A DNA stretch of 64,000 nucleotides from Actinomycetota bacterium (GTDB lineage Bacteria; Actinomycetota; Geothermincolia; Geothermincolales; RBG-13-55-18), in contig JACIXD010000005.1 of the NCBI GenBank assembly GCA_014360645.1, positions 186,001-250,000 of the forward strand. Direction: 5' to 3'. Numbering within the stretch: the first letter of the stretch is position 1; every line of letters starts with the position of its first letter. The translations under genes were made by a program, and so were the position numbers. The notes under the pieces were generated by a model. That model did no database searches. It saw only the letters and a list, made by a program, of their open reading frames with translations, and was not told the DNA's origin. Below are positions 39,023 to 43,835 of the stretch, piece after piece.

Positions 39023-40255
39023 GTGCCGGAGGAGGGCAGGGAGAGGAGATACCTGGTCATCGTGAATCCCGTCTCCAGGGGCGGCAAGGCCCAGGAGGAG
39101 GGTATCTGGCTGCTCAATCGCCTTAAACGCGCCGGGGTGAAGTACGAGGCCTTGTTCACGGAGCGCGCAGGCCACGCCGAGGAGATGGTGGTACAGTGGG
39201 CCGATGAATTCGACGTGGTGGTCTCGGTCTCGGGCGACGGTACCACCAACGAGATCATCAACGGCATCATGAAGGTCCCCTCCGCCGACCTCAAGCTGGC
39301 CATGTTCCCCGCCGGCACCGCCGACGACTTCGCCTGCAACATGGGGTATGACCGCAAGGACAAGGAGCAGGCGCTTAAGGCCATCCTGGGAAACGCCTAC
39401 CGCACCATCGACCTCATCCGTTACGACGACCGGTACGCCGCCGTGACCTGGGGGCTGGGGGTCGATTCGGAGATCGCCGACGGCGCCTACAAGTGGAAGC
39501 GCTTCCGCATCCCCGCCTACTTCTACAGCGGCCTCAAGAAGTGCTTCTTCGAGGAGCGCAAGCGGTACCATGTCCGCTTCGACTACGAGGGACAGACCTT
39601 CGAGGGGTGGGTGCTCATCTCCATCCTCTGCAACGCGCCGGTCTTCGGCCGCTATATCCGGATCAATCCCAATGCGCGTATGAACGACGGCCTGCTGGAC
39701 CTCACCATAGGCCGGGAGATGCCCAACGTATACGGCCTGCTGCTCTTCGCCTTCGCCTGCATGGGAGGCCGGCACGGCTTCTCCCGCCTGGTCTCCTACC
39801 ACCAGGTGCGGAGCATGCGCGTGGAGTGTAAGACGGAGACCTACGCCCAGATCGACGGCGAGGTCTACAAGTTCGATGCGGGGAGGGTCATCAACCTCTC
39901 GGTGGTCCCGCGGGCCCTGAAGGTGCTGGTGCCCGCCGCTTCCCTCAAGAACAGGAGATTGCCCTTCGTCCCCACGGAGGAACCCTCGGAGCCCGTGCAG
40001 CTCCGGCTGATCCCCCAGCGGGAAGGGGTCTCGGAGGAGCTCGAGGAGCTGTCCCGGAGGGTGAAGGCCAGGGTGGACCAGGCCTTGGAGGCGGCGCGCC
40101 TTGGACCTCGCCTGGCCCCCACCTTCAGCCGCCGGCGCAAGACCGGGCGGCAGCAGGTCCTTTTCCGCCCGGACCGCGAGGAGAGGTTGGTGCGGGGAGC
40201 GGCCCGAAGGCTGAAAAAGGAGGCCAAGGCCAGGGGTTCCCGCGGCGGGAGATAG
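39023..40255 (+). CDS. Diacylglycerol kinase family lipid kinase
   Basis: A 410-residue protein with a DAGK catalytic domain: YLVIVNPVSRGGKAQEEG, VSVSGDGTTNEIINGI and LAMFPAGTADDFACNMG (the nucleotide-binding GDGT and PxGTxNDF-type motifs, here AGTADDF). The C-terminal half is a beta-sandwich with DGLLDLTIGREM and QIDGEVYKFDAG. A basic extension follows (about 330-410), rich in Lys and Arg, which could bind membranes. It probably phosphorylates a diacylglycerol or related lipid at the inner membrane face. GTG 39023 is the first in-frame start before the motif. Confidence 0.85.
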   Translation: MPEEGRERRYLVIVNPVSRGGKAQEEGIWLLNRLKRAGVKYEALFTERAGHAEEMVVQWADEFDVVVSVSGDGTTNEIINGIMKVPSADLKLAMFPAGTADDFACNMGYDRKDKEQALKAILGNAYRTIDLIRYDDRYAAVTWGLGVDSEIADGAYKWKRFRIPAYFYSGLKKCFFEERKRYHVRFDYEGQTFEGWVLISILCNAPVFGRYIRINPNARMNDGLLDLTIGREMPNVYGLLLFAFACMGGRHGFSRLVSYHQVRSMRVECKTETYAQIDGEVYKFDAGRVINLSVVPRALKVLVPAASLKNRRLPFVPTEEPSEPVQLRLIPQREGVSEELEELSRRVKARVDQALEAARLGPRLAPTFSRRRKTGRQQVLFRPDREERLVRGAARRLKKEAKARGSRGGR

Positions 40256-40487: not shown

Positions 40488-40516
40488 TTGACATGGAAAT
40501 ACCACTCTGCTAACTT
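40488..40516 (+). promoter_or_regulatory. Predicted promoter without a protein gene
   Basis: TTGACA (40488-40493) and TAACTT (40511-40516) with a 17-base spacer, in a locally AT-rich patch. No protein-coding gene on the plus strand follows before 41124, but the predicted structured RNA and terminator do. A weak hairpin (GCCCC-ATCC-GGGGT) with seven Ts lies between at 40559-40582. Confidence 0.5.
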
Positions 40517-40603
40517 CGAATCGACGGGTGGGACGACATATATGGTAGCGATTCTTGAGCCCCATCCGGGGTCGATTTTTTTGGACATTGAAAAGGGCCC
40601 TAC

Positions 40604-40701
40604 GCTATAAGCTGCCGGCCAACCCCATATGCCCTATAGCATGAGATGGAATCAGCACATTCCACCCCCTGAAATAGCCCTATCCGCCGGTGGCTTATAG
40701 C
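40604..40701 (+). ncRNA. Predicted structured RNA
   Basis: GCTATAAGCTGCCGGC (40604-40619) pairs over its whole length with GCCGGTGGCTTATAGC (40686-40701), a 16-bp helix with only two G-U wobbles. Within it are hairpins ATGC-CCTATA-GCAT (40629-40642) and TGGAAT-CAGCAC-ATTCCA (40647-40664). A strong terminator follows at 40714. Together this is a multi-branched RNA of about 100 nt with a promoter upstream. No protein gene overlaps it, and I do not recognise an RNA family. Orientation is inferred from the terminator. Confidence 0.5.
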
Positions 40702-40713
40702 TCCCCTTTAAGA

Positions 40714-40742
40714 GGAGGCGCTTCGGCGCCTCCCTTCCTTTT
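40714..40742 (+). terminator. Intrinsic terminator with UUCG loop
   Basis: GGAGGCGC-TTCG-GCGCCTCC is a perfect 8-bp stem with a UUCG tetraloop, followed by CTTCCTTTT. On the plus strand it would end transcripts coming from the region of the predicted RNA (or read-through from the lipid kinase gene 460 bases upstream). Confidence 0.75.
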
Positions 40743-41123
40743 AAGCTGTTGGAGAATTCAGGAAAGCAGATCAAGGATAAAAGGTGCGGGGCCTCCCAGA
40801 AAAGTGATGGAGTCGAGCCGTATACGTGCGGAGCAAGGACCTTTTACGGCGCAAAGGGTAAGGGGGGATCATGCAGCGGACAGGTGGCGCGGGGGTCTGC
40901 CGCACCGGCAAAGGATGGATCCACACCGTTTGTTCCCCTCGCGCAGCGCCGCACTTCCGGGTCAGGCGAAGGGCACATGCCATGTCGTGTTTGGAAGGGC
41001 CGCGCCGTACCGGCAAAGAAAGGCGATCCATACCCGTTCAATTGACGTATGGCATCGGCTCCCAAGGGGAAAGCGAAAGCCGCACGGGCTTCCCGGGACC
41101 GCCGGGGAGGCGCCGCTTTCCCG
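40743..41123. other. Structured non-coding stretch with direct repeat
   Basis: Between two convergent genes. TAAAAGGT (40778-40785) pairs with ACCTTTTA (40840-40847) around a hairpin CCGTA-TACG-TGCGG (40819-40832) with a UACG loop. Further on, CACCGGCAAAGGATGGATCC (about 40905) recurs as TACCGGCAAAGAAAGGCGAT (about 41010). No protein gene found. Confidence 0.4.
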
Positions 41124-41921
41124 CTAGCCCGTCCGCCCCGGGACCCGTTCCACGAACTCGGGCAGCATCAGCACCTCGACGTCCCCTCCGGCGGGAAGGA
41201 CCGTCAGGGCCTGTCCATAGCAGCCGGTGCACACGGTGACCAGGGTGTCGGTGAGTACGCTCGCGGCGATATGGGCGGCGCCCTCCGGCCGGTAACAGCA
41301 TTGCGGCGCGTCGATGCGGTTCACCTTAAGTCCTTCCAGGCGGGAGAAGACCTCCTCGGTGGATTCCAGGTCCATGGGCACAGGGGAGAACCTGCGGTGA
41401 AGCCGGTAACAGCCGGCGTAGTAGTCGATCTCCCTGTCGAGGGATGTCTTTTCCAGGGCTTCGGCCAGGGCGCGCGGGTAGAAGACGATGTCCCGGTCGG
41501 GAAAGGCGTGCTTGTAGATGGGATAGCAGGGCGAACAGAAGATCACCAGCCTCCTCGCTCCCAGTTCGTCAGCCCGCATGAGGTTGAGGGCCACGAACTC
41601 CTTGGAGAGCTCGCGGCACTGCCCCAGGGCCTCCTCGTCACGCGCCTTGATGGCGGGGCGGTAGAGGTAGTTGCCGCAGCAGTACTCGCGAGAGAGAAAG
41701 GTGTAGGAGAAGTCGCCGCGGTCCAGCACGCGCGCCAGGGAGGCGAGCACGTGGGGGAGGAGGTGCAGCACCTGGCAGCCGGTGACGATGACGTTCTCCG
41801 CCTCGCGGTCATATGGCAGGCTGTGTTTCTCCAGCACCTCCGCCCGCGGCGGGAGCCCGGCTGCGGCGTTCCCGGTCTCCCTGATGGTCTCCACCATCCT
41901 CTCGTCTATCAATCCGCTCAT
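41124..41921 (-). CDS. CCG-domain (heterodisulfide reductase B-like) protein
   Basis: A 265-residue cysteine-rich protein resembling HdrB / CCG-domain redox proteins: VIVTGCQVLHLLPHVLASL, FLSREYCCGNYLY, VIFCSPCYPIYKHAFP, DYYAGCYRLHRRF, IDAPQCCYRPEG and VTVCTGCYGQALTVL. The two CCG-like clusters suggest a noncubane [4Fe-4S] or thiol redox site. Exact partners are unknown; HdrA and HdrC are not adjacent. ATG 41921 is chosen as AAAGGAGGAGAAG precedes it, while the longer frame lacks a site. Confidence 0.75.
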   Translation of the reverse strand: MSGLIDERMVETIRETGNAAAGLPPRAEVLEKHSLPYDREAENVIVTGCQVLHLLPHVLASLARVLDRGDFSYTFLSREYCCGNYLYRPAIKARDEEALGQCRELSKEFVALNLMRADELGARRLVIFCSPCYPIYKHAFPDRDIVFYPRALAEALEKTSLDREIDYYAGCYRLHRRFSPVPMDLESTEEVFSRLEGLKVNRIDAPQCCYRPEGAAHIAASVLTDTLVTVCTGCYGQALTVLPAGGDVEVLMLPEFVERVPGRTG

Positions 41922-42039: not shown

Positions 42040-43152
42040 TCATGGACCTGCCCTCATCTTGAGAAAAGACGGCCTGTAGGGCCGCGGAACCGCGAGCTCG
42101 GGCCGGCCGCAGGGAGGCGCGTCCAGGTCTGGGCAGGTGGCGTGGCAATTGGCCGTGCACCCCGGGATGGGGGCGAGCTCCCCCGGGCCCACGCGGCGCG
42201 AAAAGGGCATGGCGAATGCTTCGCAGTGGGGAAGCCCCGGCGTGTCCGCCTCGTCCGCCGAAAGCTCTTGGCAGACGGCGTAGGTCATGCCCAGCTCACA
42301 CGCGGCAGCGCGCATGGCGAGGTGGAAGTCCAGGCGCAGGGGATGGCGCAGCATGTAGCCGCCGGACGTGTAGGAGCGGTCGTAGGCATAATCCCGCGCC
42401 AGCGCCGCTGCACCGCGGGCGGACAGGCCTCGCGCCAGCTCGCGCAACCTAGCCAGGGTGGAGCGTGTGAGGCGCCCCGTGGAGCCGACCACGTGAGCGG
42501 CTCCGACGGAGGCGCAGTCCTTCAGCAGATCCCACGCCCGTTCCATCCACTCTTCGCCGTAGAGCGCCCGCCACAGGGGAGGGATTACCGGGTCCAGGCG
42601 CACCAGGGCGGGCAGGCCCCGCGACGCGGCCCAGCGCAGGGCGGCGAGCCTCTGCCCGTAGGCGGGCGCCTGTGGCGAGAGGATGTCCAGGACCTCCGGA
42701 GGCCCCTCGACGGTCACGGCGAGAAAGAACCGGCCCGGGCCCGGAAACCCCGGGACCTCCTCCAGGAAAGAGGGATCGCCCTTGGTGATGACGTGGAAGC
42801 TCGCCCCCCATGCCACCAACACGCCCACCAGCTCTTTCACCGCCCGCCGCAGCTGGGGCACCTCCTGGCAGGGGTCGGTGACGTTGGAGATGGAGATGGG
42901 AGGGCACAGTTCCAGCCGGGACAGCTCCCGCTCCACTACGGAGGCCAGGTTGGTATACACCACCATGCCTTCCTCATGGCGCCGGGAATAGACCGCGTCG
43001 CGCGCGTAGCAGTAAAGACACGCGTGCAGGCATTGCTCCTTCCCCGGGGGAGTGACGTTCACGATCCACTTGTGGTAGCACTTGCGCCCCTCCCCCCGGT
43101 AGGGGAAATCGTGCAGGGTGGGAGAGCGGCGCTCCCTCATGGTTATCTTCAT
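42040..43152 (-). CDS. Spore photoproduct lyase-like radical SAM protein
   Basis: A 370-residue radical SAM protein with CLHACLYCYARD (Cys 41, 45 and 48), the CxxxCxxC cluster of the SPL-like family, followed by SISNVTDPCQEVPQLRRAV and ITKGDPSFLEEV. The family includes DNA repair lyases and many uncharacterised enzymes. Extra cysteines in the C-terminal GCTANCHATCPDLDAPPCG could bind another cluster. ATG 43152 is preferred; the in-frame ATG at 43170 is possible. No SPL repair substrate can be inferred here. Confidence 0.8.
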   Translation of the reverse strand: MKITMRERRSPTLHDFPYRGEGRKCYHKWIVNVTPPGKEQCLHACLYCYARDAVYSRRHEEGMVVYTNLASVVERELSRLELCPPISISNVTDPCQEVPQLRRAVKELVGVLVAWGASFHVITKGDPSFLEEVPGFPGPGRFFLAVTVEGPPEVLDILSPQAPAYGQRLAALRWAASRGLPALVRLDPVIPPLWRALYGEEWMERAWDLLKDCASVGAAHVVGSTGRLTRSTLARLRELARGLSARGAAALARDYAYDRSYTSGGYMLRHPLRLDFHLAMRAAACELGMTYAVCQELSADEADTPGLPHCEAFAMPFSRRVGPGELAPIPGCTANCHATCPDLDAPPCGRPELAVPRPYRPSFLKMRAGP

Positions 43153-43383
43153 GCCCTCATGATATCCCATGGGCTTGTGTCAAGGCCTGCCTCAGCCTCG
43201 GGCCGGGGGGCAGAGCCGGATCCTGGGTCGCGGGCGGGATCAGGGATGGCAGTCGTGGATTGACCGTACAGTGGACCTGGGATGTGAAATGGGTCGCCGG
43301 GGGAGTTCTCGCGGGAGGATGAAGGGATGTAGTGGCGAGCGGGCTTTAGGCTTTCGTTCACGGCCCCCGGGAGGTGGCCCGGA

Positions 43384-43835
43384 CGGGTCCCTTGCGCGAG
43401 GGAAAATCATCAGTATGTGGCAAGCGGAAAAGGAATAATGCGGCGGGCCCCCTTGCGCAGGGGAAGGTCAGATGGCAGTGGCCCTCTCACGGACCGTTAT
43501 CGGAAAGTCCCATTTGCACGGGGGAAGCTCGTAGCCAGGTAGAGCTCGCGCAAGCGGACGAAGGTGGTCTCCCTTGCCCGGGTGGAGACCGCAGATGAAT
43601 CCAAAAACTGTCTCTATAAGAGCAGCGTCTCCCCTTGCGTGCGCGGGGGAGATGTGTTGTCCCGCCCGTCCAATTGTCAATTGTCTCCCCTTGCGCGCGC
43701 GGGGGAGATGATGCCCTGCACCAAGCCCACCAGCACCAGGTTTGTCTCCCCTTGCGCGCGCGGGGGAGATCGCTCATGGAGAAAAAGATAGACATTTGTG
43801 ACACGGGCAAGCCCCATTGCGCGGGGGGGGAGAGC
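43384..43835 (+). CRISPR. Orphan, decaying type I-E-like CRISPR array
   Basis: Eight repeats at 43384, 43445, 43507, 43567, 43627, 43683, 43744 and about 43808, with a period of about 61 bp (one interval of 56). The three best copies are 27 bp, starting GTCTCCCCTTGCG and ending GCGGGGGAGAT, a palindromic GC stem as in type I-E repeats. Spacers are about 29-37 nt. Repeats at both ends are degenerate (GGGTCCCTTGCGCGAGGG at left, GCCCCATTGCGCGGGG at right). No cas gene is in the window, so the array is orphan and probably not renewed. Strand chosen arbitrarily. Confidence 0.85.

Follow-up and report, generated by a model that had tools for sequence, protein, structure and literature searches.

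A stand-alone gene for a structured small RNA (sRNA) lies between two convergent protein genes in an actinobacterium of the Ca. Geothermincolaceae/Solincola group (class Ca. Geothermincolia, Actinomycetota). On comparative sequence evidence it represents a new sRNA family, confined to two of the families in Ca. Geothermincolales. The kind of gene is itself ordinary, a stand-alone structured sRNA with its own promoter and terminator, a conserved structure and no open reading frame. No work on non-coding RNA in Ca. Geothermincolia turned up when open-licence papers were searched in full text.

Genomic context

The window, the whole stretch of DNA that was analysed, comprises 64,000 nucleotides (contig C5, 186001-250000) of a 3.38-Mb genome that has Ca. 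Solincola species among its named relatives. The sRNA gene and its neighbors are arranged as follows.

39023-40255, plus strand: DAGK/YegS-type lipid kinase gene, upstream
40488-40742, plus strand: sRNA gene including promoter and terminator, single copy in the genome
41124-42023, minus strand: CCG/HdrB-like cysteine-rich-domain gene, downstream and convergent

The initial annotation had placed the RNA in a gap between convergent genes that holds no protein gene, and this is borne out. The kinase gene stops at 40255 and the CCG/HdrB-like gene at 41124, and the core of the element has no open frame, since its length shifts by 1 nt among homologues (e.g., L007, L013 and L015). A riboswitch is disfavored, as no same-strand gene follows the sRNA before the convergent one. 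A DAGK/YegS-type kinase gene lies upstream of the sRNA both in the family of the window's genome and in the second family that carries the element. In the two representatives of that second family (L015 of genome G016 and L017 of genome G017) the downstream neighbor differs: a radical-SAM-like protein resembling the one at 42040-43170 of the window is directly downstream in L015, and an unrelated protein takes that position in L017.

Further along the window, positions 43380-43770 carry repeat units set apart from one another, each about 29-30 nt long and built around a GC-rich palindrome. The unit TCTCCCCTTGCGCGCGCGGGGGAGAT occurs three times at 43625-43770, and two related units lie at 43380-43470, with a spacing of 56-61; the array may be CRISPR-like in its spacing or of the REP type.

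Core structure and closing helix

The core RNA consists of a 5' flank, a long closing helix and an enclosed interior, with the following parts.

40596-40701, plus strand: core RNA, made up of a 5' flank with GCCCUA, the closing helix and the invariant interior, and the basis of covariance model R1
40604-40619, plus strand: 5' arm of the closing helix (16 bp), no pair lost in any of 13 distinct aligned sequences
40686-40701, plus strand: 3' arm of the closing helix, likewise with all 16 pairs kept in the 13
40629-40642, plus strand: hairpin 1, AUGC-CCUAUA-GCAU, kept in 15 of 17 homologues
40647-40664, plus strand: hairpin 2, UGGAAU/AUUCCA, present in the window's genome but not conserved
40656-40671, plus strand: invariant C-rich segment CACAUUCCACCCCCUG, candidate target-contact site, identical in 17/17

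The closing helix was found as first described, with 16 bp and two G-U pairs, and is kept in all 17 relatives. Among 1000 dinucleotide shuffles a single one yielded a gapless helix of at least 16 bp, but the window is GC-rich and 8 of its 565 tiles of equal size also reach such a length, so that the helix by itself is moderate evidence. For 40520-40745 the folding energy is -78.8 kcal/mol, whereas shuffled sequences average -67.1 (z = -2.43) and 1 of 200 does as well. Conservation confirms that the observation is real. Among the 13 distinct sequences, 12 closing pairs are invariant, 3 have one-sided changes (U-G/C-G/U-A, G-U/A-U and G-C/G-U), one has a double change (U-A/A-U) and none is broken; the homologous helices thus do contain compensatory changes, on which the initial annotation had hung its structural claim. 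The preservation of every pair, together with the double change and the G-U-compatible changes, indicates that the closing helix is an RNA structure. The sequence varies so little that covariation is scarce: in shuffle controls the covariation score passed (6/500), and the number of covarying pairs did not (137/500).

A long inverted repeat could also be a DNA-level element, such as a cruciform, an attachment site or a replication site, and the closing helix is such a repeat. This reading is highly improbable, as two adjacent G-U pairs predominate in the helix and alternate in relatives with C-G, U-A and A-U, which suits RNA rather than DNA, and as a promoter and a terminator flank the helix on one strand. 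Model matches on the reverse strand at the locus stem from the near-palindromic closing helix.

The predicted fold is the same in all homologues, a 16-bp helix around an open interior of 66 nt. This interior contains 24 C and 10 G, is nearly invariant (about 60 nt) and is predicted to be mostly unpaired. The two internal hairpins that had been described within it fared differently. Hairpin 1 is intact in 15 of 17 homologues and is reduced in L014 and L016 to a 3-bp version with a 5-nt loop. Hairpin 2 is intact in 10 and broken in the other seven (L007, L008, L010, L011, L013, L014 and L016). Where it is broken, AUUC can pair instead with a downstream GAAU and so expose CACCCCCU in the loop; where it is intact, GAAU is interrupted by an extra A in 9 of 10 cases (Fisher p = 4e-4, kinship ignored). 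Because the state of hairpin 2 and the interruption of GAAU go together, it seems that AUUC retains a partner under either arrangement and that the C-rich stretch stays open. The C-rich part of CACAUUCCACCCCCUG has predicted unpaired probabilities of 0.69-0.98 and is mostly open or in a loop. The three copies of GCCCUA were considered as a repeated binding motif and rejected, as 14% of shuffles match them (p = 0.14).

Promoter, leader and terminator

The elements flanking the core are as follows.

40488-40516, plus strand: promoter (-35 TTGACA at 40488-40493, 17-nt spacer, TG of an extended -10 at 40508-40509, -10 TAACTT at 40511-40516), 17/17 homologues
40526-40532, plus strand: 5' box GGGTGGG, a few nt past the predicted start, invariant in 17/17
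40526-40582, plus strand: leader that can form either of two hairpins but not both at once; the 15 homologues of the window's family retain both arms
40714-40742, plus strand: intrinsic terminator GGAGGCGC-UUCG-GCGCCUCC with U-rich tail, stem-loop in 17/17

The proposed promoter stands as described, and the pattern TTGACA-17-TANNTT is kept in 17/17. This supports, from sequence, transcription from the gene's own sigma-70-type promoter, with a start inferred at about 40520-40524. The GGGTGGG box follows the -10 element by 8-15 nt in every homologue, despite a leader that ranges from 78-98 nt in the window's family to 142 and 182 nt in the second family. Genome-wide, the combined pattern of promoter and box occurs at exactly one site in each of 13 carriers and at none in 4 non-carriers. 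Since promoter and box are conserved upstream of the core and are unique in each of these 13 carriers, promoter, box and core form one inherited unit. Pairing of the box with the interior was considered and set aside, as the duplex of -14.1 kcal/mol (L001) is matched by 42% (L001) to 74% (L007) of shuffled interiors.

The initial annotation had worried that a weak early terminator at 40559-40582 might separate the promoter from the core. That doubt is largely resolved by the presence of promoter and box upstream of the core in 17/17. The suspected terminator is itself an arm of the conserved pair of leader hairpins, and its U-run is not conserved. In the window's family, GGGUGGG can pair with CCCCAUCC (40560-40567), and this pairing precludes the terminator-like hairpin CCCCAUCCGGGG. 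In the window, the second of the two hairpins, GCCCC-AUCC-GGGGU (40559-40572), is followed by U7 (40576-40582). The terminator-like leader hairpin is found in 14 of the 15 homologues of this family (its stem is broken in L012), while a clean run of 6-7 T follows it only in L001-L006 and L009 and is lost in L011, L014 and L016. Competing hairpins of this kind are an attenuator-like arrangement, yet no protein gene follows.

Attenuation is possible in some genera and is not a general feature. A stronger version would have the 5' hairpins as the functional part, with the core as read-through RNA or as a regulatory sensor for transcription in the region. Such a role would agree with the invariant GGGUGGG box and with the U7 run that accompanies the competing hairpins in the window's genus and in certain other genera. 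It is nonetheless distinctly improbable: no same-strand gene lies downstream to be controlled, conservation within the window's family is 93.9% in the core against 60.9% in the leader, the U-run is lost in the three homologues named above, and the leaders of the second family are unrelated to the others except for the box.

At the 3' end, the UUCG-loop terminator (40714-40733) was correctly recognized. Its paired bases differ in L009 and L014-L017 with the pairing preserved, which supports an RNA that would end at this intrinsic terminator and be about 220 nt long in the window's genome.

Distribution

Besides the window's genome, BLAST recovered the element in 14 members of its family and in 2 genomes from another family of the order, so that all 17 searched genomes of these two families are carriers (15 and 2, respectively). 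Covariance model R1, the 106-nt core, was searched against 397 genomes of the phylum and matched the same 17 at E 5e-25 or better. No match came from the sole genome of a third family, from the 13 remaining class members or from 366 further sampled genomes of the phylum, although a model built from close sequences could miss strongly diverged homologues. Beside the lipid-kinase homologues of the 14 other class members, a search without filtering reached at best 13.6 bits, which is chance level. The two best of these kinase-adjacent matches were rejected as divergent homologues, for they overlap each other on opposite strands as a plain palindrome would. The plasmid collection gave no match to the sRNA, and a single exact 17-mer match in IMG/VR, with no core around it, was taken as chance and not as a viral relative.

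Comparison with known RNA families

The initial annotation did not recognize the family of the RNA, and Rfam gave only chance matches both at the gathering score and at E up to 10. The RNA is neither a displaced SRP RNA nor a displaced RNase P, since the genome has both at other loci.

The 6C/B11 sRNA (RF01066) represses mRNAs by pairing its C-rich loops with G tracts (PMC10470900, PMC12395582). Like the present RNA, it is an actinobacterial sRNA that stands alone, exposes C-rich stretches and ends at an intrinsic terminator, and the two may also share pairing with G tracts near ribosome-binding sites. The architecture is different, in that 6C has two hairpins with loops of about six C, whereas here one 16-bp helix encloses an open domain. 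The loop of hairpin 1 is CCUAUA, and only the alternative AUUC/GAAU hairpin would show six C (CACCCCCU). The 6C model found no match at the locus, none in genome G000 and none above cut-off in 17 genomes, in a search of limited sensitivity whose controls, including C. glutamicum, also scored only below cut-off. One sub-threshold 6C match elsewhere (L117, G007:C15:8839-8906; 35.5 bits, E 0.0066) may be chance or a diverged 6C RNA. The LhrC/RsaE-type sRNAs of Gram-positive bacteria carry several short C-rich single-stranded motifs in repeated form; such motifs are found here as well, but the three GCCCUA copies do not exceed chance.

The hallmark of 6S and Ms1 RNAs is a long rod with a central bubble that mimics an open promoter. 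The present RNA lacks a central bubble in a long rod and has no sequence or model match to them, though it shares with Ms1 RNA/MTS2823 and 6S its size class, a closing helix around a large unpaired region and its single copy. The 6S model (RF00013), searched with E up to 10, matches nowhere in the genome; this absence says little because that model misses actinobacterial RNAs. Ms1 is about 300 nt long and is linked to a neighboring HAD hydrolase gene (PMC9130861), in contrast to the roughly 220 nt and the DAGK/YegS lipid kinase neighbor of this sRNA. The CoRP RNA of Corynebacterium glutamicum is 516 nt long, cleaved and flanked by tRNA genes (PMC11077062), which again differs from an RNA of this size; compared by description only, the two are alike as intergenic, lineage-limited structured RNAs of actinobacteria.

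Proposed function

The C-rich open stretch probably, on the modeled fold, pairs with messenger RNAs or binds a protein, and we put mRNA pairing somewhat ahead of protein binding. The favored reading, held tentatively and at a little under an even chance, is a real stand-alone sRNA gene whose product acts in trans by displaying C-rich loops in the manner of 6C/B11, without being a 6C member. It is suggested by the predicted accessibility of the invariant C-rich segment and by the 6C/B11 analogy. The gene's own promoter would give a short leader with two competing hairpins, then the core, then the intrinsic terminator. The 16-bp helix would hold open the nearly invariant, C-rich and G-poor domain of about 66 nt, and CACAUUCCACCCCCUG and the CCCUAU loops would pair in trans with G-rich stretches of mRNA, for example at ribosome-binding sites. 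In some genera part of the transcription may stop early at the leader hairpins and so adjust output. In carriers, CAGGGGGTG occurs at 295 sites 3-11 nt ahead of an RTG, compared with 231 for the pattern in reverse; the corresponding counts in non-carriers are 56 and 64. This surplus at start codons is weak and falls short of significance (p = 0.07, kinship ignored). Outside the locus, no place in the genome matches the 18-nt complement of the C-rich segment at fewer than 3 mismatches.

So long a near-invariant sequence, about 60 nt, exceeds what an mRNA-pairing sRNA usually needs, and is a better fit to a housekeeping-type RNA-protein particle that would bind RNA polymerase, as do 6S, Ms1 and CoRP, or sequester an RNA-binding protein through the C-rich domain. 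We regard such a particle, the chief alternative to mRNA pairing, as rather unlikely. An RNA of about 220 nt, in single copy and in every searched genome of the clade, would suit it, as would the lack of a detected 6S RNA in the genome and the precedent that different groups of Actinobacteria carry unrelated polymerase-binding RNAs (Ms1, PMC9130861; CoRP, PMC11077062). Against it stand the mostly open interior in place of a rod with a central bubble, the lack of a match to any Rfam 6S family and a GCCCUA triplicate that is within chance. The more specific proposal of an essential Geothermincolales particle, for instance a lineage-specific polymerase-binding RNA that replaces 6S and uses the C-rich open domain as its binding face, is unlikely.

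Significance

Whichever partner the RNA contacts, about 60 nt stay near-invariant across two families while the neighboring protein falls to 67-72% identity, a difference that implies strong function. For an uncultured actinobacterial class, the element is a previously undescribed RNA family, highly conserved and with its promoter, ends and structure defined. Should it prove to bind a protein, the short list of actinobacterial RNAs that take the place of 6S would grow by one.
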